The notes beneath the pieces are model-generated. The model saw nothing but the letters and a program-made list of their open reading frames with translations. It did no database searches and was not told the DNA's origin. Below, piece after piece: positions 12,680-25,452 of a stretch of DNA of 36,573 bases (positions within the stretch are counted from its first letter, which is position 1; every line of letters begins with the position of its first letter). Origin of the DNA: Rubrivivax sp. (lineage in GTDB: Bacteria > Pseudomonadota > Gammaproteobacteria > Burkholderiales > Burkholderiaceae_C); the NCBI GenBank assembly GCA_021298085.1, contig JAJTDE010000034.1, positions 1 through 36,573 of the forward strand, given 5' to 3'. The position numbers were made by a program, and so were the translations under genes.

Positions 12680-14644
12680 TCAGCGCGATGCCGTGACGGC
12701 CGGCCCCGTGGCCCCGTCAAAGCCGATGGACCACAGCACGCGCAGGTCCTGCAGGTCATCCACCCCTTCGGCATAGAGCGACACCCCCATCGCGCGGGCC
12801 GTCACCACCAATTGGCGCGCAAAGTCGGCCAGCGCCGCGTCGTTGGCCAGGCCCCGGATGTAGCGGCTGTCCACCTTCAGGTAATCGACGCCATAACTGC
12901 GCGCGTCGGCCAGCGCCTCCAGCGCACGCCCGGTGTTGTCGATGCCCAGCCGCACGCCCAGCGGACGCCAGCGCTCGGCGGCATCACGCCAACGCCGCCA
13001 ATGGGCCGTCGCCGATTCATCCACCTCGATCGACAGCTTGCCGGCGGCCTGCGGCACGGCGGCCAGGCGGCGCTCGAACTCACGAACAAATCCGGAATCG
13101 GCCAGCGCGGCGGCCGACACATGGATGCTGCGGGGGCGGCCGTCCTGGGCGATGGCCGCCAGCGCCAGGCGCGCCGCCGCCAGGTCGACCTGGTCCATCA
13201 GCTGGCCGCGCCAGGCCATGGGCAACCAGCGCTCGGCGCGGACAAATGGGCCGTCGCTGTGCAGCTGCACGCGCAGCGGGCATTCCAGGTGCGCGATGCG
13301 CCCGTCGTTGAGCACCACCGGGAACTCGGCAATCTGCGTCTGGCCGGCGGCCAGTGCGCGCATCAGGCGCGAGCGCCACTCGCTCTCGCCAATGCCCTCG
13401 CCTTCGGCCAGGTCCAGCACCTGCACCACCGGTGGCACCTGCAGCTCACTGCGGGCCAAGGCCTCGTCGGCACGGGCCAAGGCATCCGATGAGCCGTCGG
13501 CCTGGAGGCCGTCCACGCCGCCGATGCACACCCGCGCACTGGGCTCGATGACCGCCAGGACGGTGGTCAGGGCCTCGCGCAAGGCATTCGCGGTTTCGCG
13601 GGCCATGCCGTTGGCCGGCAGGTACAGCGCCACATCGCGGCCATTCAGGCGGCCCGCAAATGAGCCCTCCACCCGAGAGGGATAGGTCTGCATGACCTCG
13701 CCAATGGCGGCCAGCAGCCTGTCCACCACCGCATGGCCGAGCTTCGAGTTGAGCGTCTCGATATCGCTGAGCCGCACCATCAGCAGGCCGCCACGGCGCG
13801 GGCTCTCGTCAGCCGCCAGGCCGCCGTGTGCGGCACCGGCCACCCCGGCTTCGGCAGGCTCTGGCACCGAGGCGTCCAGCACCTGCTCCAGGCGGACCAG
13901 GAAGTGCCGGCGGTTGGCCAGGCCGGTGAGCGAATCGGTCTGCACCTGGCGCTGCAGGGCTGCCAGCTGGGCGGCATGCTCGTCAAACAGTGCGTGCATG
14001 CGGCGAACCATCGAGTTCATGCCCGAGGTCAGTCGCTGCAATTCCGCCGTGCGCGGCTCCGGGATCTCCTCAAAGCGCCCGGCTTCCAGCGCCTGGGCCT
14101 GCGCCAGCACCTTGTTCAGGCCCTGGCGCCAGCGCTGCACCGCGGCCAGCACCACGGCCAGGGTGGCCAGGCCCATCAGCGCCAGCCAGGCGGCACTGCG
14201 CACCAGCGAGTTCCACAGGGCGTCGTAGGCCCAGGCCGAGTGGCTTTCGATCTCCACCTTGCCCAGGGACTTCCAGCCGTCGGTGACGATGGCCACACCG
14301 GCCTTGGCCTCCATGGGCAGCCAGCGCGCCACCCAGGCGGGCGCCGTGCCGGTGCGGTGGGGCGACTCCCGTTCGAACAGGGCCTGGTTGCCATCCAGCA
14401 CCAGGCGAATGCGGCGGTAGTGACCGGTGTCGAACTGTGCCGCCAACACCAGTTCCAGCAGGGCCTTGTCGCCCTTCTGCTGGCTCAGGGCGAGCGCGAG
14501 CATCGACGCCGCGTCGGCATTGCGCACCTGCCACTGTTCCTCCAGGGCGGTGCGGGTGTTGTAGACGCTGACGCCAATGCTCCCCGCCATGGAGAGCACC
14601 ACCGCTGCCAGGACGATCAGCGCCATCTGGCGGATCATCGACAT
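12680..14644 (-). CDS. lapD: LapD-like c-di-GMP receptor with degenerate GGDEF and EAL domains
   Basis: 654-residue inner-membrane receptor that, when bound to c-di-GMP, is expected to sequester the protease LapG through its periplasmic domain. Order: membrane segment about 6-26, a LapD/MoxY-type periplasmic domain about 27-145 (FDTGHYRRIRLV, PAWVARWLPMEA), second membrane segment about 146-169, HAMP, GGDEF-like about 245-410 and EAL-like about 425-650. The GGDEF signature is NGRDVALYLP, and the EAL motif is replaced in VRAERWLPMAW, with LGIDNTGR in place of DDFGTG, so neither synthesis nor hydrolysis is expected; this matches known LapD proteins. Start ATG 14644 has a strong AGGAGGAG ribosome site; longer in-frame starts run into lapG. 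It follows lapG by 19 bases. Confidence 0.9.
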   Translation of the reverse strand: MSMIRQMALIVLAAVVLSMAGSIGVSVYNTRTALEEQWQVRNADAASMLALALSQQKGDKALLELVLAAQFDTGHYRRIRLVLDGNQALFERESPHRTGTAPAWVARWLPMEAKAGVAIVTDGWKSLGKVEIESHSAWAYDALWNSLVRSAAWLALMGLATLAVVLAAVQRWRQGLNKVLAQAQALEAGRFEEIPEPRTAELQRLTSGMNSMVRRMHALFDEHAAQLAALQRQVQTDSLTGLANRRHFLVRLEQVLDASVPEPAEAGVAGAAHGGLAADESPRRGGLLMVRLSDIETLNSKLGHAVVDRLLAAIGEVMQTYPSRVEGSFAGRLNGRDVALYLPANGMARETANALREALTTVLAVIEPSARVCIGGVDGLQADGSSDALARADEALARSELQVPPVVQVLDLAEGEGIGESEWRSRLMRALAAGQTQIAEFPVVLNDGRIAHLECPLRVQLHSDGPFVRAERWLPMAWRGQLMDQVDLAAARLALAAIAQDGRPRSIHVSAAALADSGFVREFERRLAAVPQAAGKLSIEVDESATAHWRRWRDAAERWRPLGVRLGIDNTGRALEALADARSYGVDYLKVDSRYIRGLANDAALADFARQLVVTARAMGVSLYAEGVDDLQDLRVLWSIGFDGATGPAVTASR

Positions 14645-14663
14645 GCCAACTCCTCCTGCTCGC

Positions 14664-15392
14664 TCATTCGAATCCCTCTGCTCGGGCTCGCTGCAGCACA
14701 TCGCGCCAGCGTGAGACCCGCGCCTGGGGATCACCCGCGCTCTGTGGGCCCGCACCGTTCCACAAGCCGTCGCGGTTGAAACTGAACACCGGCGTCAGAT
14801 CCGGCCGTCGCGACGCCGGGCGGATGTCCGGCACCAGGTTGTCCAGGATCAGCGGCTCGGCCGTGGGCTCTGAATAGTAGGCCAGGACCATGTGGGCCTG
14901 GGATTCCGCAGGGCGCCCCGGCCCCATCGGCATCTGGGCCCGCACGTAGACCAGGCGCAGCCGCGTTGACGTCACGCCGGCCGACAACAGCGTGAAGTAT
15001 TTGCCAATAGCGTAGTCTTCACAGTCGCCCAGGCCCTTTGACAAGGTTTCCAAAGGTGTCGCCCAGTGGTCGTCCTGGCCCCACACCGCCTGGTCATTGG
15101 AGAAGCTGACCTGCCGGTTGAAGAAGCGGTTGATGTTCTCCAGGCGCCCGGGGTCATCGAGGGTGCCTGAACGGGCCAGCACATCGCGCAGCTCGCCCGC
15201 CATGCGCTCGGCGCGTGGGCCCAGGGCCACGGCCGCCTGCTGCAGCCGCACGGTGTCCAGTGCCCTGGCGCTGGGCTCCAGCGTCAGGCACAGCACCATG
15301 ACCGCAGCCGCCACGGCTGTTCGCCATGGCCGGTACGCGGTGCGCACAGGGGTGTGACGCACCGGCGCTGCACGCAGAACAGGGCCCGACAT
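14664..15392 (-). CDS. lapG: LapG-type periplasmic cysteine protease (transglutaminase-like)
   Basis: A 242-residue secreted protease. In the known Lap system it cleaves the N-terminal retention module of a giant surface adhesin, releasing cells from biofilm when c-di-GMP is low. A hydrophobic signal-like segment (about 25-37, AVAAAVMVLCLTL) ends near ARA-LDT. The catalytic triad is clear: C124 in GLGDCEDYAIGKY, H167 in AHMVLAYY and D184 in ILDNLV. The calcium-binding region WGQDDHWATPLET is present. Start at ATG 15392 is tentative because the N-terminal 20 residues are not hydrophobic; a GTG fifteen codons in (MSG..PVRTAYRPW) would give a shorter signal peptide. Adjacent lapD supports the call. 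The adhesin and its type I secretion genes are not in the window. Confidence 0.9.
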   Translation of the reverse strand: MSGPVLRAAPVRHTPVRTAYRPWRTAVAAAVMVLCLTLEPSARALDTVRLQQAAVALGPRAERMAGELRDVLARSGTLDDPGRLENINRFFNRQVSFSNDQAVWGQDDHWATPLETLSKGLGDCEDYAIGKYFTLLSAGVTSTRLRLVYVRAQMPMGPGRPAESQAHMVLAYYSEPTAEPLILDNLVPDIRPASRRPDLTPVFSFNRDGLWNGAGPQSAGDPQARVSRWRDVLQRARAEGFE

Positions 15393-15438
15393 GGGCCATC
15401 TGATCGGAGCGCGGCCGGGCTACTTGAGAAATGCGGGT

Positions 15439-15460
15439 GTTTTTGCGGTCAGTTTTTGCG
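15439..15460. repeat. Direct repeat GTTTTTGCG upstream of lapG
   Basis: Two copies of GTTTTTGCG start at 15439 and 15452, 13 bases apart, in the 101-base gap between the lpdA stop and the lapG start. This is the only AT-rich patch there. It may be a regulator site or promoter element for lapG-lapD, or read-through sequence from lpdA. No named motif matches. Confidence 0.35.
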
Positions 15461-15493
15461 ATACCGGCGGCTGGCTGCAGCGTTCAGCGCACT

Positions 15494-17347
15494 TCAGCGG
15501 CGTGCCGGTGGTAAGTCAGTGCAGCTGCCGTGGGCCACTTCGGCCGCCATGCCGATGCTCTCGCCCAACGTGGGGTGCGGGTGGATGGTCTTGCCGATGT
15601 CCACCGCGTCGGCGCCCATCTCGATGGCCAGCGCCACCTCGCCGATCATGTCTCCGGCATGGGTCCCGACAATCCCGCCGCCCAGGATACGGCCATGGCC
15701 ATGCGCCTCCTCGCTGTCGTCGAACAGCAGCTTGGTGAAGCCTTCATCGCGCCCATTGGCGATGGCCCGTCCGGAGGCCGTCCAGGGGAACAGCCCCTTC
15801 TTGACCTTGATGCCCTGGGCCTTGGCCTGGTCTTCGGTCAGGCCCACCCAGGCGATCTCAGGGTCGGTGTAAGCCACGCTCGGGATGACACGGGCGTTGA
15901 AGGCCGCACTGGCCAGGGCCTTGTCGCCCTTCAGTTCGCCGGCCGCCACTTCGGCCGCCACATGGGCTTCATGCACCGCCTTGTGCGCCAGCATCGGCTG
16001 GCCCACGATGTCGCCGATGGCAAAGATGTGCGGCACGTTGGTGCGCATCTGGATGTCCACCGGGATGAAGCCGCGGTCGGTCACGGCCACGCCCGCCTGC
16101 TCCGCGCCGATCTTCTTGCCGTTCGGGCTGCGGCCCACCGCCTGCAGCACCAGGTCATAGGTCTGCGGCGGCGGTGCGTTCTCGCCCTCGAAGCTGACTT
16201 CGATGCCAGCTTCGGTGGCCCGCGCCGCCACCGTCTTGGTCTTCAGCATCACGTGGTCGAAGCGGTGCGCATTCATCTTCTGCCAGACCTTGACCAGGTC
16301 ACGGTCGGCGCCCTGCATCAGGCCATCCATCATCTCGACCACATCCAGGCGGGCGCCCAGGCTGCTGTATACCGTGCCCATCTCCAGACCGATGATGCCG
16401 CCGCCGAGGATCAGCATGCGCTTCGGCACGGACGCCAGCCCCAGTGCGCCGGTGCTGTCCACCACCCGCGGATCGTCGGGCATGAAGGGCAGGCGCACGG
16501 CCTGGCTGCCGGCGGCGATGATGCAGCGCTGGAAGGCAATCACCTGCGACTCGCCGGTCTTTTCCTGCGCGCTGCCGGCGGTGAGTTCCACCTTCACGTG
16601 CTGGGGGCCGGCAAAGCTGCCGTAACCCCGCACCACCGTGACCTTGCGCATCTTGGCCATGGCCGCCAGGCCGCCGGTCAGCTTGCCAATGACCTTTTCC
16701 TTGTGCCCGCGCAGCTTGTCGATGTCCAGCGCTGGGGCGCCGAAGGACACGCCGAGCTCGGCCATGTGGCTGACCTCGTCCATCACGGCGGCCACGTGCA
16801 GCAGCGCCTTGCTGGGGATGCAGCCCACATTCAGGCAGACACCACCCAGCGTGGCATAACGCTCCACCAGCACCACCTTCAGGCCGAGGTCAGCGGCGCG
16901 GAAGGCGGCCGAATAGCCGCCGGGGCCGGCGCCCAGCACCAGCAGGTCGCAGCTCAGATCGGCCTGGCCGGTGTAGGCCGGGGCGGCGGACGCCGCTGGC
17001 ATGGCCGGTGCGGCTGCGGCCGCGGGAGCAGTGGCGGGCGAAGCCGCCGCGGGCGCTGGCGCAGGTGCTGCCGATACCGCCGCCGGTGCAGCAGCGGCTG
17101 GCTGCGCGCCCTCGGCTTCCAGCATCAGCAGCAGGCTGCCTTCGTTGACCTTGTCGCCCAGCGCCACCTTGAGCTCGCGCACGACACCGGCGGTCGACGA
17201 CGGGATCTCCATCGACGCCTTGTCGCTCTCCACGGTGATCAGGCTCTGGTCCACCTTGATGGTGTCACCCGGCTTGACCAGCAGTTCAATGACCGTCACA
17301 TCCTTGAAATCACCGATGTCCGGAACCTTCACTTCGACGAGTGCCAT
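15494..17347 (-). CDS. lpdA: Dihydrolipoyl dehydrogenase (E3) of pyruvate dehydrogenase, with N-terminal lipoyl domain
   Basis: E3 reoxidises dihydrolipoyl groups of the E2 core and passes electrons to NAD+. The 617-residue protein starts with a lipoyl domain (about 1-78; lipoyl lysine K43 in [11 protein letters not shown]), then an Ala/Pro hinge (about 80-120). The flavoprotein follows, with FAD motif [15 protein letters not shown], redox disulfide [13 protein letters not shown], second nucleotide fold [13 protein letters not shown], and the catalytic His of [10 protein letters not shown] at the C-terminus. E3 proteins with their own lipoyl domain are typical of betaproteobacterial pyruvate dehydrogenase. 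The ATG at 17347 is chosen for its upstream GAAGGTGAG; a GTG at 17356 is also in frame. Last gene of the aceE-aceF-bph-lpdA unit, 16 bases after bph. Confidence 0.96.
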
Positions 17348-17363
17348 CGCGCTCACCTTCTTC

Positions 17364-17942
17364 TCAAAGTTGGGTGCTGAGCTTGACCGTGTGCAACTTC
17401 ACCGGCAGCCCAGAACTCTTGTCAAACTCGCAGCCTGCACGGACGCCGATGTCGGCGATGTCCTTCGCGCTGCGCTTGCCTTCCCAGCTGGCGTGCATGG
17501 CACCCAGCGCGTACGTGCGGCCTGAGCCGATGGCCCAGAAGCGGTCGAACTCAAACACTTCCCGGTAGGAGTAGACGCCGTAGATGCCGCTGGCATTGGC
17601 GATCAGCATCACAAACTGGCTGCTTTCGTACGGGTCTGCGTCTTCTTCCTTGGGGTTGAGGAAGAAGTTCTCCTTCAGCTTGGGGTGCAAGCGCAGGAAG
17701 GTGTCGAAGACCTCGTCACGGGAATTCAGCCGCAGCTCATCGGCCGGCAGCGACGACAACGCCCGGCGCAGCACACTGAAGTGCGCCGTGGTGCCGGCCA
17801 GCCCGAACCAGCTCGCCCCCACTCGAAACAGCTTGTCGTTGGCTTCGTAGCCATGCGAAAGCCGCGTTTCGCCGAAGGTGACGAGCGAATCGGCGGCGAT
17901 GGCCACCTGGCCACCCTTGCGGGCGACGGTGATGGTGGTCAT
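17364..17942 (-). CDS. Betaproteobacterial proteasome homologue (BPH), Ntn-hydrolase peptidase
   Basis: A 192-residue protein of the proteasome beta/HslV superfamily. The N-terminus [19 protein letters not shown] places Thr2 directly after the initiator Met, so Met removal would expose a threonine nucleophile without a propeptide, as in HslV. D18 (AADS) and K37 (ANDKLFRV) sit where the catalytic Asp17 and Lys33 neighbours fall; GLAGTTAHF and [13 protein letters not shown] match the Gly47 and Ser-loop regions. It differs from HslV (no partner hslU here, insert [20 protein letters not shown]) and from the longer Anbu proteins, and fits BPH, reported as a self-assembling double-ring peptidase in betaproteobacteria. 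It lies between aceF (25 bases) and lpdA (16 bases), so it should be cotranscribed with pyruvate dehydrogenase. Substrates and any unfoldase partner are unknown. Confidence 0.85.
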
Positions 17943-17967
17943 CGCGGGCAGCCCTGCGTCAACCGCC

Positions 17968-19368
17968 TCACAGCATCACGCGCCGGAAATCCGCCAGCAC
18001 CTGGCCCAGGTAGGCGTTGAAGCGTGCCGCGGCAGCGCCGTCGATGACGCGGTGATCCCAGCTGAGGCTCAGCGGCAGGATCAGGCGCGGCACAAACGTT
18101 TCCTTCTCGGCGTCCCAGCGCGGCTCGGTGCTGCTGCGGCACACCCCGAGGATGGACACCTCCGGTGCATTGATGATGGGCGTGAAGTAGCGTCCGCCAA
18201 TGCCACCCAGGCTGCTGATGCTGAAGCAGCCGCCCTGCATCTCGGCCGGGCTCAGCTTGCCGTCGCGGGCCTTCTTGGCCAGGTCGCTCATTTCCTGGCT
18301 GATCTGCAGGATGCCTTTCTTGTCGGCGTCCTTGATCACCGGCACCATCAGGCCGTTGGGCGTGTCGGCCGCAAAGCCGATGTGGAAGTAGTTCTTCAGG
18401 ACCAGCTGGTCGCCGTCAAGGCTGGCATTGAACTCCGGAAACTTCTTCAGTGCCGCCACGCTGGCCTTGATCAGGAAGGCCAGCATCGTCACCTTGACGC
18501 CCGACTTCGCGTTTTCGTCGTTCAGGCGCACGCGGAAGGCTTCGAGGTCGGTGATGTCGGCGTCGTCGTGGTTGGTCACGTGCGGAATGACCACCCAGTT
18601 GCGGTGCAGGTTGGCGCCGCTGATCTTCTTGATGCGCGACAAGTCCTTGCGCTCGACCGGGCCGAACTTGCTGAAGTCGACCTGCGGCCAGGGCAGCAGC
18701 CCCGGGAACGTGCCCGCCGAGGCACCGGCGCCCCCAGCGGCCGCGGGTGCCGCAGCGGGCTGGCGGGCCCGCTGCGCGGCGGTCAGCTCGTCGCCCTGCA
18801 TCACGCGCTTCACGAAGCCTTCGATGTCAGCCTGCGTGATGCGGCCCTTGGTGCCGGAACCCTTGACCTCACCCAGCGGCACACCCAGCTCGCGCGCAAA
18901 CTTGCGCACCGACGGCGAGGCATGCGGCAAACCCACCGGCGCCACCGTGGGCTCATGCGCCGGCACGGCTGCACTGGCGGCAGGCGCCGGCGCAGCAGCG
19001 ACGGCCACCACCACCGGTGCGGGCGCAGGCGCGGGAACCGGCGCCGCCACCACCGCTGGTGCAGCAGCCGGCGGCTCGGCCGGCGCCGCAGGGGCTGGCG
19101 CGGGCGCCGGCGCGGGCGCTCCAGCTGCCCCGCTGGCCTCCAGCATCAGCAGCACGCTGCCCATGTTCACCGTGTCACCCAGCTTCACCACCAGGCTCTG
19201 CACCACCCCGGCGTGCGACGACGGAATCTCCATCGACGCCTTGTCGCTCTCCACGGTGATCAGGGATTGGTCCACCGCCACGGTGTCGCCCGGCTTGACG
19301 AGCAGCTCGATCACCGCCACGTCCTTGAAATCGCCGATATCCGGCACCCGTACTTCCATCACTGCCAT
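17968..19368 (-). CDS. aceF: Dihydrolipoyllysine-residue acetyltransferase (E2) of pyruvate dehydrogenase
   Basis: Core component that carries the acetyl group from E1 to CoA on a lipoyl arm. The 466-residue protein has one lipoyl domain (1-78, lipoyl lysine K43 in [11 protein letters not shown]) and a long Ala/Pro/Val hinge (about 82-145). A peripheral-subunit-binding domain follows (HASPSVRKFARELGV to GRITQADIEGFV). The catalytic acyltransferase domain ends with the active-site motif DHRVIDGAAAARF, with H439. One lipoyl domain rather than the three of E. coli makes it shorter than that enzyme. Start ATG 19368 has GGAG upstream. It follows aceE by 32 bases and precedes bph by 25. Its lipoyl domain is very similar to that on lpdA. 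Confidence 0.96.
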   Translation of the reverse strand: MAVMEVRVPDIGDFKDVAVIELLVKPGDTVAVDQSLITVESDKASMEIPSSHAGVVQSLVVKLGDTVNMGSVLLMLEASGAAGAPAPAPAPAPAAPAEPPAAAPAVVAAPVPAPAPAPVVVAVAAAPAPAASAAVPAHEPTVAPVGLPHASPSVRKFARELGVPLGEVKGSGTKGRITQADIEGFVKRVMQGDELTAAQRARQPAAAPAAAGGAGASAGTFPGLLPWPQVDFSKFGPVERKDLSRIKKISGANLHRNWVVIPHVTNHDDADITDLEAFRVRLNDENAKSGVKVTMLAFLIKASVAALKKFPEFNASLDGDQLVLKNYFHIGFAADTPNGLMVPVIKDADKKGILQISQEMSDLAKKARDGKLSPAEMQGGCFSISSLGGIGGRYFTPIINAPEVSILGVCRSSTEPRWDAEKETFVPRLILPLSLSWDHRVIDGAAAARFNAYLGQVLADFRRVML

Positions 19369-19400
19369 GTCTGGACTCCGTCTCTTGTGCTCGGGTGGGT

Positions 19401-22106
19401 TCAGGCGAATAAGGGGTTCAGCCGCTCGGCCTTGATGCCGTAGCGGTGGATGGCTTCAGCCACCCGCGACGCCGGCACCGTGCCCTCGTCGGACAGCGCC
19501 TTGAGCGCGGCCACGACGATGTAATGGCGGTTGACCTCGAAGTGCTCGCGCAGCTTGGTGCGGAAATCCGAACGTCCGAAGCCGTCCGTGCCCAGCACCC
19601 GGAACGGCCGGCCCTTGGGGATGAACGCGCGGATCTGGTCGGCGTAGCTGCGCATGTAGTCGGTGGACGCCACCACCGGGCCGACATGGCCCAGCAGCTG
19701 CTGCGTCACAAAGGGCACACGGGCCTCGTGCGTAGGGTGCAGCAGGTTCCAGCGTTCGCAGTCATGGCCGTCACGGGCCAGTTCATTGAAGCTGGGGCAG
19801 CTCCAGACATTGGCGGCCACGCCCCATTCGGCTTCCAGCAGCTTGCGGGCTTCGATGCTTTCCCGCAGGATGGTGCCGCTGCCCAGCAGGTTGACGCGCG
19901 GCGTGCGCGCGGCGCCCTCTTCCAGCAGGTACATGCCCTTGAGGATCTCTTCCTCGGTGCCCGGCTTCAGGCCCGGCATGGGGTAGTTCTCGTTCAGCAG
20001 CGTGATGTAGTAGAAGACGTTGTCCTGGTTCTCCACCATGCGCTTGAGGCCGTGGTGCAGGATGACACCGACCTCGTGCGCAAAGGTCGGGTCGTAGCTG
20101 ATGCAGTTCGGGATGGTGCCGGCCAGGATGTGGCTGTGGCCATCCTCGTGCTGCAGGCCTTCGCCGTTCAGCGTCGTCCGCCCGGACGTGCCACCCAGCA
20201 GGAAGCCGCGGGCCTGCATGTCGCCGGCCGCCCAGGCCAGGTCACCGATGCGCTGGAAGCCGAACATCGAGTAGTACACGTAGAACGGCACCATGATGCG
20301 GTTGCTGGTGCTGTAGCTGGTGGCCGCCGCGATCCAGCTGCTCATGCCGCCGGCCTCGTTGATGCCTTCCTGCAGGATCTGCCCGGCCTTGTCCTCGCGG
20401 TAGTACATGACCTGGTCCTTGTCGACCGGGGTGTACAGCTGGCCTGCCGGGTTGTAGATGCCGATCTGCCGGAACAGGCCTTCCATGCCGAAGGTGCGGG
20501 CCTCGTCCACCAGGATGGGCACGACCCGCGGGCCCAGTTCCTTCTCGCGCAGCAGCTGCGTCAGGAAGCGCACATAGGCCTGCGTGGTAGAGATCTCGCG
20601 GCCTTCGGCGGTGGGCTCCAGCACGCTCTTGAAGGTCTCCAGCGGCGGCACGGTGAACTGCTCGTCGGCCTTGCGGCGGCGCGCGGGCAGGTAGCCGCCC
20701 AGCGCGGCGCGGCGTTCGTGCAGGTACTTCATCTCCGGCGTGTCATTGGCCGGACGGTAGAACGGGATGTTGGGCAGCTCGTGGTCGGGGATGGGAATGT
20801 TGAAGCGGTCGCGGAAGGCGCGGATGTCGTCATCCGTCAGCTTCTTGGCCTGGTGGGCGGTGTTCTTGCCCTCGCCGGCCTTGCCCATGCCCCAGCCCTT
20901 GACCGTCTTGACCAGCAGCACTGTGGGCTGGCCCTGGTGGTGGACCGCGCGGTCAAAGGCCGCATAGACCTTGCCCGCATCGTGGCCGCCGCGGCGCAGG
21001 TTCCAGATCTCGTCGTCGCTCATCTTGGCGACCATCTCCAGCGTGCGCGGGTCGCGCCCGAAGAAATGCTTGCGGACAAAGGCGCCATCGTTGGCCTTGA
21101 AGGCCTGGTAGTCGCCGTCCAGCGTATCCATCATGATCTGGCGCAGCGCACCGTCCTTGTCCTTGGCCAGCAGCGAATCCCAGTTGCTGCCCCAGATCAG
21201 CTTGATGACGTTCCAGCCGGCGCCGCGGAATTCACCTTCCAGCTCCTGGATGATCTTGCCGTTGCCCCGCACCGGGCCGTCCAGGCGCTGCAGGTTGCAG
21301 TTGACGACAAACACCAGGTTGTCCAGCTTCTCGCGGGAGGCCAGGCCGATGGCGCCCAGGCTCTCCGGTTCGTCCATCTCGCCGTCGCCGCAGAAGACCC
21401 AGACCTTGCGGTTTTCGGTGTTGGCGATGCCGCGGGCGTGCAGGTACTTCAGGAAGCGCGCCTGGTAGATGGCCATCAGCGGGCCCAGGCCCATGGACAC
21501 CGTCGGGAACTGCCAGAAATCGGGCATCAGCTTGGGGTGCGGGTAGCTCGACAGGCCCTTGCCATCCACTTCCTGGCGGAAGTTCAGCAGCTGCTCTTCG
21601 CTCAGACGGCCTTCCAGGAAGGCGCGTGCATAGATGCCCGGGGCGCTGTGCCCCTGGATGTAGAGGCAATCACCGCCACGCTCGGCGCTGTCGGCGTGCC
21701 AAAAGTGGTTGAAGCCGGCCGCAAACAGGTGCGCCAGCGACGCGAAGGAACTGATGTGCCCGCCCAGGTCGCCGCCATCGGCAGGGTTGAGGCGATTGGC
21801 CTTGACCACCATGGCCATCGCGTTCCAGCGCATGTAGGCGCGCAGGCGTCCTTCGAGCTCGAGGTTGCCGGGGCTGCGCGCCTCTTCGGAAGGTTCGATG
21901 GTGTTGACATAGCCCGTGGTGGCCGAGAACGGCATGTCCACGCTGTGCTGCCGTGCATGCTCCAGCAGGCTCTCCAGCAAGAAGTGGGCACGTTCAGGGC
22001 CCTCTGCCGCAATGACAGCTTCAAGCGCATCCAGCCACTCTCGGGTTTCTTGCGCGTCGACATCGGCGCTCGGCAGGACTTTCGGAGAATCTGGTGAAGC
22101 TGACAT
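19401..22106 (-). CDS. aceE: Pyruvate dehydrogenase E1 component (homodimeric)
   Basis: Thiamine-diphosphate enzyme that decarboxylates pyruvate and acetylates the E2 lipoyl group. The 901-residue product compares with 887 in E. coli. The thiamine-diphosphate motif starts at GDGEMDEPES and continues to VFVVNCNLQRLDGPVRGN. HISSFASLAHLFAAGFNHFW, the E1-type GWGMGKAGEGKNTAHQ and the C-terminal LGTDGFGRSD are all characteristic of AceE. Start at ATG 22106 (MSASPDSPK) is supported by GGGAG nine bases upstream; an in-frame start at 22148 would add an unconserved leader. First gene of the aceE-aceF-bph-lpdA operon, divergent from a FixL/FixJ-like two-component system across 167 bases containing inverted repeats. 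Confidence 0.97.
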   Translation of the reverse strand: MSASPDSPKVLPSADVDAQETREWLDALEAVIAAEGPERAHFLLESLLEHARQHSVDMPFSATTGYVNTIEPSEEARSPGNLELEGRLRAYMRWNAMAMVVKANRLNPADGGDLGGHISSFASLAHLFAAGFNHFWHADSAERGGDCLYIQGHSAPGIYARAFLEGRLSEEQLLNFRQEVDGKGLSSYPHPKLMPDFWQFPTVSMGLGPLMAIYQARFLKYLHARGIANTENRKVWVFCGDGEMDEPESLGAIGLASREKLDNLVFVVNCNLQRLDGPVRGNGKIIQELEGEFRGAGWNVIKLIWGSNWDSLLAKDKDGALRQIMMDTLDGDYQAFKANDGAFVRKHFFGRDPRTLEMVAKMSDDEIWNLRRGGHDAGKVYAAFDRAVHHQGQPTVLLVKTVKGWGMGKAGEGKNTAHQAKKLTDDDIRAFRDRFNIPIPDHELPNIPFYRPANDTPEMKYLHERRAALGGYLPARRRKADEQFTVPPLETFKSVLEPTAEGREISTTQAYVRFLTQLLREKELGPRVVPILVDEARTFGMEGLFRQIGIYNPAGQLYTPVDKDQVMYYREDKAGQILQEGINEAGGMSSWIAAATSYSTSNRIMVPFYVYYSMFGFQRIGDLAWAAGDMQARGFLLGGTSGRTTLNGEGLQHEDGHSHILAGTIPNCISYDPTFAHEVGVILHHGLKRMVENQDNVFYYITLLNENYPMPGLKPGTEEEILKGMYLLEEGAARTPRVNLLGSGTILRESIEARKLLEAEWGVAANVWSCPSFNELARDGHDCERWNLLHPTHEARVPFVTQQLLGHVGPVVASTDYMRSYADQIRAFIPKGRPFRVLGTDGFGRSDFRTKLREHFEVNRHYIVVAALKALSDEGTVPASRVAEAIHRYGIKAERLNPLFA

Positions 22107-22175
22107 GAACACTCCCGGTGTGGCAATGACGTGGTGGATGGGGCGCATCAGGGCCCCGGGTGACGGGCGGCGAAG

Positions 22176-22204
22176 AGTGTCCCACAGCGCCCGTGATATT
22201 TCAA
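22176..22204 (-). promoter_or_regulatory. Candidate sigma-70 promoter of the aceE operon
   Basis: On the minus strand TTGAAA (22204-22199) and GACACT (22181-22176) are 17 bases apart. The -35 matches TTGACA at 5 of 6; the -10 is weak (3 of 6). It would give a 5' leader of about 60 bases. The -35 overlaps the left arm of the inverted repeat at 22193-22239, so a protein bound there would be expected to block it. Inference from sequence only. Confidence 0.4.
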
Positions 22205-22239
22205 ATAGCGGCTATTCGTTTCATATCATGAAATATCAC
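22193..22239. promoter_or_regulatory. Nested AT-rich inverted repeats, candidate operator between aceE and the two-component system
   Basis: Perfect 11-base arms GTGATATTTCA (22193-22203) and TGAAATATCAC (22229-22239) flank a 25-base spacer. Within it are two further dyads, AATAGC-G-GCTATT (22204-22216) and TTTCAT-ATC-ATGAAA (22219-22233). Such AT-rich symmetry stands out in very GC-rich DNA and sits at the shared control region of the two divergent units. A dimeric regulator site is likely; the protein is not identified, and the sequence does not match the E. coli PdhR box. Confidence 0.6.
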
Positions 22240-22273
22240 GCGTCGGCGGCGGTGCTTTCATAATCCCGGCCCA

Positions 22274-24829
22274 ATGCCTCCTACCACCCTCCCCGCCGGC
22301 CATGCCTCGCACGAACTGAGCCGCCTGCAACGCCTGCTGGGCCGCTGGTGGCGCCGCCAGTCACCGGCGCGCCAGGACCGTTACGCCACCCTGGCGCCGC
22401 TGGCGTCGGTGCTGCTGTTCCTGGCGGCCATCATCTCGGCCTTCTGGTACCTGCGCAATGAGGAGATGGACCGGGAAATCGAATCCGTTCGTCGCGACAC
22501 CGAGATTACGCAGCAGCAGATCGGTCTGCGCCTCATCGAAAACCAGGAGCAGCTCTACCGAATTGCCCGTGAACTGATTGCCCGGGACAACGCCGGCGAA
22601 GACCTCTCGGCCCAGGTGGTGAACTTCGTGCGTGAGCGCCCGGAGATCAACATCGTGCACTGGGTGGCGCCGCAGCGCACCCTGCGTGGCAGCCACCGCT
22701 CACCACGCCACCAGTCCGACCTGGACAGCGCCTTCGAAGCCACCGCCAGCGCCGTGCCCATCGAAGGCAGCGAGTCCCCCACCGAGCTGGCCTTCCGGGC
22801 CGCGCGCGACCAGCGCCAGCCGGTCTATACCGCGGGCTTTCGCAGCCCTGGCGGTGATGCCGTGTTCCACCTGCATGTGCCCCTGGTGGACCGTGGCCGC
22901 TTTGCCGGTGTCCTGCTGGTGGAGTATTCGATACCGTCGCTGCTGCGCCACTTCGTGCCGCCCGATGTCGCGCGACGCCATGTCATGTCCATCGTGGGCG
23001 ACCAGCAGACCGTGCTCGCCAGCACCTCCAGCACCCTGCCCGAACCCGGGCGGCCGAGGCCGTCCATCATCTACGACGCGCCCGTCACGCCTGCGCTGAG
23101 CGGCATGCTGGTGCGCGGTGAGGGCTGGCGCGCGTCCATCGGCCTGGTCAGCAACGGGCTGTTCTGGATGGTGGTGTCGCTGTCGGTGCTGACGGTGTGG
23201 ATGCTGCTGGGCACCTTGCGGCACATGCAGCGCCGTGCGCAGATCCAGTCAGCCCTGGTGCAGGAAACTCAGTTTCGCCGTGCGATGGAGAACTCCATGC
23301 TCACCGGCATGCGTGCGCTCGACATGGAAGGTCGCATCACCTACGTGAACGCGGCCTTCTGCCAGATGAGCGGCTTCACCGAGGAAGAGCTGCTGGGACT
23401 GCTGCCGCCCTACCCCTACTGGCCGGCTGACCGCATCGAGGAGAACCTGCGCCTGCTGGAACAGGAACTGCAAGGCCGCAGCCCGTCAGGCGGCATCGAA
23501 GTCCGCCTCATGCGCAAGGACGGCCAGCTGTTTGACGCCCGGATGTATGTGTCGCCGCTGATTGACCCCCGCGGCCAGCAGGCCGGCTGGATGACCTCCA
23601 TGACCAACATCACCGAGGCCAAGCGCATCCGCGACCAGCTCTCGGCGTCACACGAACGTTTCACCACCGTGCTGGAAGGCCTGGACGCCTCGGTGTCGGT
23701 GTTGTCGGTGGAACAAAACGAGCTGCTGTTTGCCAACCGTTCCTACCGCCTGTGGTTCGGTGCTCACGCGCGCGGCCACGCGCAGCTGGCCGGCGGCCTG
23801 GAGCCCGGCAACTTCTCGCGCGCCAACGAAGACACCGTCGACGACCTCTCCGGCCTGCCCGCGCAGGCGCTGACTGACCGCAGCGGGGATCTGCGCGAGA
23901 TCTACGTCGAATCCCTGAACAAGTGGTTCGATGTGCGCTCGCGCTACCTGCAGTGGACCGACGGCAGCCTGGCGCAGATGCTGATCGCCACCGACGTCAC
24001 CGCGCGCCTGAAGGCCGAGGAGCAAGCCGCCCAGCAGGCCGAACGCGCGGCCATCACCAGCCGCCTGATGACCATGGGCGAGATGGCCTCCACCGTGGCC
24101 CATGAACTCAACCAGCCGCTGACGGCCATCACCAACTACTGCAGCGGCATGGTCAGCCGCGTGCTGAACGACGCCATCGCCAAGGACGACCTGATCAACG
24201 CGCTGCGCAAGACGGCCCACCAGGCCGAGCGTGCCGGCCAGGTCATCCACCGCATCCGGGCGTTTGTGAAGAAGAGCGAGCCGCAGCGCCAGCCCGCGCA
24301 GGCCAAGGCCATCGTCGAGGACGCCGTTGAACTGGCCAGCCTGGCCCTGCGCCGGCGCAACGTGGCCATCCGCAGCTACGTGGCCCAGCACCTGCCGCTG
24401 ATCAACTGTGACCCGATCCTGATCGAGCAGGTCATCCTGAACCTGCTGAAGAACAGCGCCGAGGCCATCGATGCCGCGCAACTGCCGGTGCAGCGCCGCA
24501 GCATCGAACTGCGCGTGGTGCCGCGCCACACCCAGGACGAAGGCGGTGTCATCGAATTCAGCGTCACCGACGCCGGCCCCGGCCTGCCCGAGGATGTCAG
24601 CAGCCGGCTCTATGAAGCCTTCTTCTCCACCAAGAGCGAAGGCCTGGGCATCGGGCTGTCGCTGTGCCGCTCGATCGTGGAGTCGCACCAGGGGCGCATG
24701 CGTGCACAGAACCTCTACAATGGCACCACTGTCGTTGGATGCCGATTCGCCTTCACGCTGCCGGTTGACTTGAACCTGCGGCACGAATCCGAACGAAACC
24801 ACGGCCCAACTTCTTCAGCACAAGCATGA
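22274..24829 (+). CDS. Membrane PAS-domain sensor histidine kinase (FixL-like)
   Basis: 851-residue sensor kinase. Membrane segment about 43-60, an extracytoplasmic sensing region about 61-290, second membrane segment about 294-316, then two PAS domains (about 332-455, ending in the GWMTSMTNITEAK PAC-type motif, and about 458-575). The HisKA domain has the phospho-acceptor H610 in MASTVAHELNQPLTAI, typical of the FixL/NtrB-like HPK4 class. The ATPase domain has N727 in LNLLKNSAEAI, DAGPGLP and GLGIGLSLCRSIVE. All catalytic boxes are intact. It overlaps the response regulator by ATGA and is divergent from aceE. There is no Shine-Dalgarno before ATG 22274; CATAAT at 22259-22264 is a possible -10 close to the start. 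The signal is unknown; proximity to aceE suggests a link to pyruvate or redox state, but that is only inference. Confidence 0.92.
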   Translation: MPPTTLPAGHASHELSRLQRLLGRWWRRQSPARQDRYATLAPLASVLLFLAAIISAFWYLRNEEMDREIESVRRDTEITQQQIGLRLIENQEQLYRIARELIARDNAGEDLSAQVVNFVRERPEINIVHWVAPQRTLRGSHRSPRHQSDLDSAFEATASAVPIEGSESPTELAFRAARDQRQPVYTAGFRSPGGDAVFHLHVPLVDRGRFAGVLLVEYSIPSLLRHFVPPDVARRHVMSIVGDQQTVLASTSSTLPEPGRPRPSIIYDAPVTPALSGMLVRGEGWRASIGLVSNGLFWMVVSLSVLTVWMLLGTLRHMQRRAQIQSALVQETQFRRAMENSMLTGMRALDMEGRITYVNAAFCQMSGFTEEELLGLLPPYPYWPADRIEENLRLLEQELQGRSPSGGIEVRLMRKDGQLFDARMYVSPLIDPRGQQAGWMTSMTNITEAKRIRDQLSASHERFTTVLEGLDASVSVLSVEQNELLFANRSYRLWFGAHARGHAQLAGGLEPGNFSRANEDTVDDLSGLPAQALTDRSGDLREIYVESLNKWFDVRSRYLQWTDGSLAQMLIATDVTARLKAEEQAAQQAERAAITSRLMTMGEMASTVAHELNQPLTAITNYCSGMVSRVLNDAIAKDDLINALRKTAHQAERAGQVIHRIRAFVKKSEPQRQPAQAKAIVEDAVELASLALRRRNVAIRSYVAQHLPLINCDPILIEQVILNLLKNSAEAIDAAQLPVQRRSIELRVVPRHTQDEGGVIEFSVTDAGPGLPEDVSSRLYEAFFSTKSEGLGIGLSLCRSIVESHQGRMRAQNLYNGTTVVGCRFAFTLPVDLNLRHESERNHGPTSSAQA

Positions 24830-25452
24830 GCCTGATTCCCAAACGCGGCACCGTCTACGTGGTTGATGACGACGAAGCGGTTCGAGATTCCCTTCAGTGG
24901 CTGCTGGAAGGCAAGGACTACCGGGTCAAGTGTTTTGATTCCGCCGAATCCTTCCTGTCCCGCTTCGACCCGCGCGAAGTGGCCTGCCTGATCGCCGACA
25001 TCCGCATGGATGGCATGAGCGGTCTGGAACTCCAAGACCGCCTGATGGAGCGCAAGAGCCCGCTGCCCATCGTCTTCATCACCGGCCATGGCGACGTGCC
25101 CATGGCAGTGAACACCATGAAGAAGGGCGCGATGGACTTCATCGAGAAGCCCTTCAAGGAAGAAGAGCTGCTGGGTCTGGTCGAACGCATGCTGGAACAG
25201 GCCCGTTCAGCCTTCAGCCAGCACCAGGAAGCTGCCAGCCGCGACGCTCTCCTCGGCCGCCTGACCACCCGCGAAAGCCAGGTGCTCGAACGCATTGTGG
25301 CCGGACGCCTGAACAAGCAGATCGCCGACGACCTGGGCATCAGCATCAAGACGGTCGAGGCGCACCGCGCCAACATCATGGAAAAGCTCAACGCCAACAC
25401 CGTGGCCGATCTGCTCAAGATCGCGCTCGGCGCCAGTGCCGCCAAAGCCTGA
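24826..25452 (+). CDS. FixJ-family response regulator (receiver + LuxR-type HTH)
   Basis: A 208-residue DNA-binding response regulator and the evident partner of the preceding kinase, whose stop overlaps its ATG by four bases. The receiver domain (about 8-122) has the acidic pocket D14-D16 (VVDDDE), phospho-acceptor D58 ([11 protein letters not shown]), T86 (FITGHGD) and K108 ([10 protein letters not shown]), with the PFK-type ending of FixJ/TodT/NodW proteins. The LuxR-type helix-turn-helix (about 140-200) is [15 protein letters not shown], then [21 protein letters not shown] strong terminator lies 27 bases downstream. Target genes are not shown; the nearby inverted repeats and the aceE promoter are the obvious first candidates. 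Confidence 0.93.

Follow-up and report, generated by a model that had tools for sequence, protein, structure and literature searches.

This analysis concerns a gene for a beta-proteobacterial proteasome homologue (BPH) in a stretch of 36,573 nucleotides (nt) of Rubrivivax sp. DNA (the window), where it sits inside the operon for the pyruvate dehydrogenase complex (PDC). In our assessment there is an even chance that BPH is an accessory, ATP-independent threonine peptidase expressed together with the PDC, and it probably does not serve the PDC itself. We prefer this reading because the PDC occurs without BPH in many relatives, because published pull-downs found no contact between the two, and because BPH genes stand in several genomic settings. 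The presence of BPH in a PDC operon has already been published for Cupriavidus metallidurans (Fuchs et al., PMC5777263). Our additions are survey counts, a probable single entry into the operon, and scars of BPH at junctions that now lack it. The gene and its surroundings in the window are as follows.

17364 to 17942, minus strand: BPH, ATG start, 192 amino acids, an N-terminal Thr hydrolase without a propeptide
17943 to 17967, minus strand: gap of 25 nt from the aceF stop to the BPH ATG, with no same-strand terminator or promoter match
17348 to 17363, minus strand: gap of 16 nt from the BPH stop to the lpdA ATG, with no same-strand terminator or promoter match
17968 to 19368, minus strand: aceF, dihydrolipoyl acetyltransferase (E2) with lipoyl, E3-binding and catalytic domains (Pfam; NCBIfam TIGR01348, 599.7 bits, cut-off 552.1)
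15494 to 17347, minus strand: lpdA, dihydrolipoyl dehydrogenase (E3) with an N-terminal lipoyl domain (Pfam; NCBIfam TIGR01350, 462.4 bits, cut-off 408.8)
19401 to 22148, minus strand: aceE, pyruvate dehydrogenase (E1) of the homodimeric type (NCBIfam TIGR00759, 1424.7 bits, cut-off 859.9)
22149 to 22273, minus strand: space of 125 nt that separates aceE from a divergently oriented histidine kinase gene, the putative site of the operon promoter, with no minus-strand promoter match

Judged by its sequence, the window gene is a true BPH, closest to the solved BPHs rather than to HslV or the proteasome. When ranked against the PDB, its product matches the BPH structures 5ovu (E 3.8e-72) and 5ovs (1.7e-36) far ahead of the next entry, an HslV (1.4e-4), and it matches the proteasome-like family PF00227 at 28 bits (cut-off 22.4). 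An HslV identity was rejected, as the protein reaches 30.6 of 137 bits on NF003964 and 28.4 of 157.75 bits on TIGR03692, and the PDB ranks disagree with it too. These results bear out the sequence-only reading, an earlier annotation of the window, which had named the protein a BPH and a threonine-type N-terminal nucleophile hydrolase with Thr2, D18, K37 and a GSG loop: the Met-Thr start, D18, K37 and G-S-G at 139-141 are all present (Met = 1). In mature numbering the active site is T1, D17, K36, G49 and S139, aligned to the published Thr1, Asp17, Lys37, Gly50 and Ser139 of Thiobacillus denitrificans BPH (PMC5777263). Among the 70 rows of the pyruvate dehydrogenase (PDH) clade described below, Thr, Lys and both Gly are kept in 70/70, Asp in 67 (Glu in 3) and Ser in 63 (Thr in 7); MT is written at the start of 60 rows, and V or L stands at the aligned first position in 10.

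The C. metallidurans BPH (5ovu) shares family, catalytic residues and acidic loop with the window protein at 60% identity (structural alignment), from which we judge that the two come from different species; it is likewise of the PDC-operon type, PMC5777263 giving operon membership rather than gene order. The T. denitrificans BPH (5ovs, 5ovt) is of the argG-operon type and 40% identical to the window protein. HslV (ClpQ) has the same fold and Thr1/Asp17/Lys mechanism, but according to the paper its partner is HslU and its pore region is short and basic, whereas BPH has a long acidic loop (PMC5777263). In the window BPH this loop is a 21-residue stretch with a net charge of -3 (hand count), and the charge runs from -2 to -7 across all 157 BPHs of our tree. 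The window's genome encodes a separate HslV (G000:C86), with 292.3 and 270.3 bits on the HslV NCBIfam models. We also discarded the idea that BPH replaces HslV: in a hand tally of high-quality genomes, with a strong PF00227 hit (E <=1e-14) assumed to be HslV, such a hit was lacking in 10/68 BPH carriers vs 25/199 non-carriers, which gives no link.

Within the window, cotranscription of BPH with aceF and lpdA is likely, judged from the gaps and overlaps. The position between aceF and lpdA on the same strand, with gaps of 25 and 16, agrees with the earlier coordinates, as does the claimed lack of a terminator at the junctions: a scan of 15300-22400 found no promoter- or terminator-like site on the minus strand, and 1 promoter-like and 4 terminator-like sites on the plus strand only (shuffle means 0.4 and 4.0). 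For lpdA an alternative in-frame GTG lies at 17356; the conserved lipoyl domain begins at the ATG at 17347.

The same arrangement recurs wherever BPH lies in a PDH operon. The order E2-BPH-E3 was found in 80/80 PDH-type loci with both flanks (70 family carriers besides the window, nine from outside the family, and the window), with median gaps of 13 and 12 nt; gaps of 50 nt or less separate E2 from BPH in 63/80 and BPH from E3 in 66/80, and gaps are negative in 19/80 loci at each junction. The outlier in spacing is L043, where BPH lies 936 nt behind the E2 stop. In the genus, E2 is directly upstream of BPH in 23/23 further places, and E3 was seen downstream in 20/23, the other three being short loci of 2.2-2.4 kb. 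The other four family carriers have incomplete loci or copies. In G467 (L279) a contig end cuts the locus, with E1 and E2 upstream of BPH; in G293 the locus is spread over two contigs (presumably L130 and L137), E2 preceding BPH and E3 following it; G480, a contig-end fragment, was left out of the fetched family carriers. In G347 (L237, L139) the BPH copy between E2 and E3 lacks about residues 48-137, although assembly error is possible in this draft genome. The position of BPH is not random, in line with the sequence-only reading. With so strict and tight a placement, the simplest advantage would be expression together with an operon of the growth phase.

Across the wider taxonomy, however, the linkage is not fixed. 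Counting the window's genome each time, BPH is present in 96/250 genomes of the order, 75/299 of the family and 23/60 of the genus; it was not found in 224/299 family genomes nor in 37/60 genus genomes, some of which are incomplete. Besides the window, the order sample holds 97 BPH places, which fall by same-strand neighbours into hsp33 (37), arg (34), other (11, some cut by contig ends), PDH (9) and hsp15 (6), so that the PDH setting is a minority in the order, with 10/98 places when the window is counted. The earlier claim of a fixed linkage is therefore limited to the clade in which BPH lies in the PDH operon; a survey of Burkholderiales, which that reading had proposed, returned a strict E2-E3 position for the PDH type and commoner settings elsewhere. 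In the arg setting (L201-L236), argG lies upstream of BPH; a DUF520 gene, presumably yajQ, was found downstream in 34/34 places, and ppnP between argG and BPH in 20/34. In strictness this neighbourhood roughly equals that of the PDH type. The S4-domain gene beside other BPHs we take to be hsp15. BPHs beside hsp33 or the S4-domain gene share family and loop with the window protein, but have other neighbours and fall outside the PDH clade. Fuchs et al. named argG, three PDC genes and hsp33 as the three prevailing operon types (PMC5777263), and the present survey gives counts for types formerly described by examples. Since BPH keeps its catalytic residues and the same kind of acidic loop across four or more settings, its basic work should not depend on the PDC.

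Several observations stand beside this survey. Five BPHs of the window's order (L200, L210, L212, L213, L232) begin with Ser instead of Thr; Fuchs et al. (2017) described Ser-start BPHs outside Betaproteobacteria (PMC5777263). Two genomes carry two BPHs, G118 (L212 and L233) and G157 (L213 and L234), in each case one of the arg type and one of the Ser type elsewhere. An Actinomycetes metagenome-assembled genome holds a BPH-like gene of 32% identity (L138:307-873), and no PDC, argG, hsp33 or hsp15 gene was found in its 5.5 kb neighbourhood.

Published work supplies the biochemical frame. BPH is described as descended from HslV, its tetradecameric double ring bearing an acidic loop at the pore; mass spectrometry of the C. 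metallidurans protein showed removal of the start Met, exposing Thr1, and epoxomicin and MG132 bind the active site, with epoxomicin reacting with Thr1 (PMC5777263). Neither casein nor standard peptides were cleaved by BPH, and the paper describes it as having no HslU-type ATPase partner and no conserved HslU interface residues (PMC5777263), in agreement with the earlier statement that no substrate or ATPase has been assigned. Pull-downs with tagged BPH from C. metallidurans extracts yielded neither PDC subunits nor HslU, and the available text does not mention a Thr-to-Ala bait (PMC5777263). A survey that members of this group published afterwards states that the genomic context of new homologues suggests no function (PMC8665760), and a functional BPH study after Fuchs et al. 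was not among the matches listed in our search, which covers subscription journals thinly. In Ralstonia eutropha H16, pdhA1 (A1374), pdhB (A1375) and pdhL (A1377) show high induction during growth; A1376, which by number lies between pdhB and pdhL, has no match in the available text (PMC3734047). Literature searches on H16_A1376 and on Alcaligenes eutrophus pdh found nothing. Hein and Steinbuechel (1994) reportedly placed an unknown reading frame, ORF3, between pdhB and pdhL.

In the accessory-peptidase reading, BPH would be a hydrolase with the HslV/proteasome fold, homo-oligomeric and self-compartmentalising, and made from an aceE-aceF-BPH-lpdA message. Its start Met would be removed to expose Thr1, and 14 subunits would assemble into a double ring whose inner pore loop is acidic, working without an ATPase on small, unfolded or damaged polypeptides able to enter the ring. 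The PDH operon would then be a site of strong, growth-linked expression and not the source of the substrate. Here we infer the cotranscription, the ATP independence, the kind of substrate, and that the gene lies where it does for the sake of its expression.

Fuchs et al. proposed instead an oxidative-stress protease that clears oxidised proteins like an uncapped 20S, its operon types being united by a stress link through Hsp33, arginine and the carbonylation-prone PDC (PMC5777263). The Hsp33 or S4-domain gene downstream in 43/97 order places (37 and 6) fits this proposal; the arg setting, with ppnP and the DUF520 gene, is hard to class as one of stress, and carbonylation patterns were unaltered by BPH both in vitro and in protease-deficient E. 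coli (PMC5777263). We consider a stress protease unlikely, though the best placed of the alternatives.

The history of the gene bears on whether the PDC needs it. In a tree of 157 BPHs, made by a quick method with the HslV of the window's genome as outgroup and with long branches flagged (including L269 in the PDH group), the 70 PDH-type rows form one clade (Shimodaira-Hasegawa approximate likelihood-ratio support 95) with one change, and therefore BPH probably entered the PDH operon once. Other settings changed more or equally often (hsp33 3, arg 2, other 5, hsp15 1). Thirteen of the 170 candidate rows were kept out for a match starting after residue 3, a short copy or a contig end. No PDH-clade BPH was found outside the PDH operon among sampled members.

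BPH is often missing where the PDC genes are kept. The aceE gene was found in 290/299 family genomes and in 266/267 of high quality, and BPH in 75/299 and 68/267, respectively; the PDC genes thus persist without BPH, which speaks against need and not against a helper role. Of the 224 BPH-lacking genomes we read 20 PDH regions and E2 loci from 88/90 further genomes, these 110 having been chosen by aceE similarity, a genus in common with carriers, handle order and completeness, and not at random. This resolved 103 BPH-free E2-E3 junctions from 102 genomes, leaving 7 loci unresolved. None of the 103 has a BPH match above 45 bits; the gap is 32 nt or less in 86/103, and reaches 389, 807 and 1101 nt in three. 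Among the 20 junctions whose gap measures at least 25 nt, a relic profile picked out one clear 3' BPH scar, at L283 (20.6 bits with the PDH-type profile vs 2.3 for the best of 400 shuffled junctions); a second 3' scar, at L285, was missed by the profile and matched congener L058 by blastn. No BPH trace was found at the other junctions searched, so BPH may never have been present there. On a tree of E2/E3 pieces (180 rows, 78 with BPH; many branches weak), presence changes at least 37 times, 7 of them forced by starred branches; this tree left out the second copies L359 and L389, six short rows, and L328, L329, L386 and L387, in which the E2 stop was not resolved. Parsimony alone cannot decide the direction, but the scars favour loss over gain, as do the carriers of this setting that occur in four other families.

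These absences would also suit a near-neutral passenger, with a small or conditional benefit, kept by its embedding between important genes and lost on clean deletion. The 224/299 family and 37/60 genus genomes in which BPH was not found (some incomplete), the scars of L283 and L285 and the internally deleted copy in G347 all favour this view. Selection speaks against it: the median ratio of nonsynonymous to synonymous substitution rates (dN/dS) is 0.159 over 162 related PDH-type pairs, and Thr1 and Lys are unchanged in 70/70 rows. The corresponding medians are 0.092 (hsp33) and 0.080 (arg), from 16 pairs each, none of the pair sets being independent. By these ratios BPH is under purifying selection while present, and a weaker constraint on the PDH clade would be compatible with its higher ratio. 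A passenger appears rather improbable, and less so only than the readings that tie BPH to the PDC.

A protease dedicated to PDC quality control, which would remove damaged, unlipoylated or unassembled subunits or flexible linkers, was the inference of the sequence-only reading. It can draw on the strict E2-E3 linkage in 80/80 loci and on pocket columns that change stepwise within the PDH clade, from the f21 and f3 rows to those of f1, f8 and f32. The residues are T20/H54/L55 in the two f21 rows, while the four f3 rows combine T20/H54 with E32/Y125; all others (f1, f8 and f32) have V20/F54 and mostly P55, with I20 in L248 and L54 in L269 as exceptions. Pocket positions were taken from two sets, with P values uncorrected and columns treated as independent. 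The S1 set comprises residues 20, 31, 33, 35, 45, 49 and 53. The published set comprises beta-5 residues 20, 21, 27, 45, 49, 50 and 52 (PMC8297691, PMC5721123), mapped onto BPH by eye. For PDH vs hsp33, PDH vs arg and hsp33 vs arg, in that order, pairwise P was 0.44, 0.003 and 0.005 with the published set, 0.35, 0.72 and 1.0 with the S1 set, and 0.23, 0.04 and 0.02 with their union. In these pairwise tests the arg clade alone stands out, and this clade (the T. denitrificans type) differs from that of the window at pocket positions 21, 27, 52 and 54. Clade-specific columns fall in the published set in 4/20 cases for arg (P 0.003) and 1/6 for hsp33 (P 0.20), and in the S1 set in 2/6 for PDH (P 0.016), 0/20 for arg and 0/6 for hsp33. 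We therefore rejected pocket retuning as proof of PDC substrates, since between the PDH and hsp33 types the pocket columns differ no more than other columns do (P 0.44).

The quality-control inference meets further difficulties: the published pull-down was without a PDC subunit (PMC5777263), 103 E2-E3 junctions do without BPH, the same enzyme occurs in three other settings and mostly elsewhere in the order, and aceE is found in 266/267 high-quality family genomes vs 68/267 for BPH. It has found little support here, and we regard it as quite improbable. More of a long shot still is a version in which, after its single entry, BPH was retuned stepwise into a PDC-dedicated protease that cuts a PDC-derived polypeptide, perhaps the Ala/Pro-rich lipoyl-domain linker, in a state missed by the published pull-downs with tagged BPH; it is put forward because no member of the clade turned up elsewhere than in the operon and because the pocket changed in stages (E32/Y125; V20/F54, mostly P55), stages that argue for it weakly.

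Three points weigh against the accessory-peptidase reading. A mere expression site would not require that the PDH clade be confined to the PDH operon, as it is in our sample; columns specific to that clade are mildly enriched at published pocket positions (2/6, P 0.016); and Fuchs et al. measured no activity, so that the word peptidase stands on structure and inhibitor binding (PMC5777263). We nevertheless rank an accessory peptidase first, followed by a stress protease, a near-neutral passenger and PDC-dedicated turnover.

Other features of the window border the operon. A PAS histidine kinase gene (Pfam; 22274-25452, plus strand) is divergent from aceE at 125 nt and is overlapped by an apparent response regulator gene (by eye); the pair is a possible regulator of the aceE operon. 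At 101 nt behind lpdA (12680-15392, minus strand) lie a Peptidase_C93 (BTLCP) gene, presumably LapG-like, and a LapD_MoxY_N-GGDEF-EAL gene, which we take together to be an adhesin-release pair under cyclic di-GMP. The E2-BPH-E3 block (15494-19368) has 91% (E2 core) and 90% (E3 core) identity to other genera, and less to two congeners (E2 86% and 83%, E3 80% and 74%); among 23 further genus BPHs, G545 alone is near that of the window (79%), the rest having 60-68%. This closeness to other genera may reflect operon exchange or a broad genus.

Few proteasome relatives combine, as BPH does, a solved structure with the lack of a known substrate. Genomes naturally without BPH stand close to carriers, even inside the genus, and this opens its role for the PDC to comparative testing.
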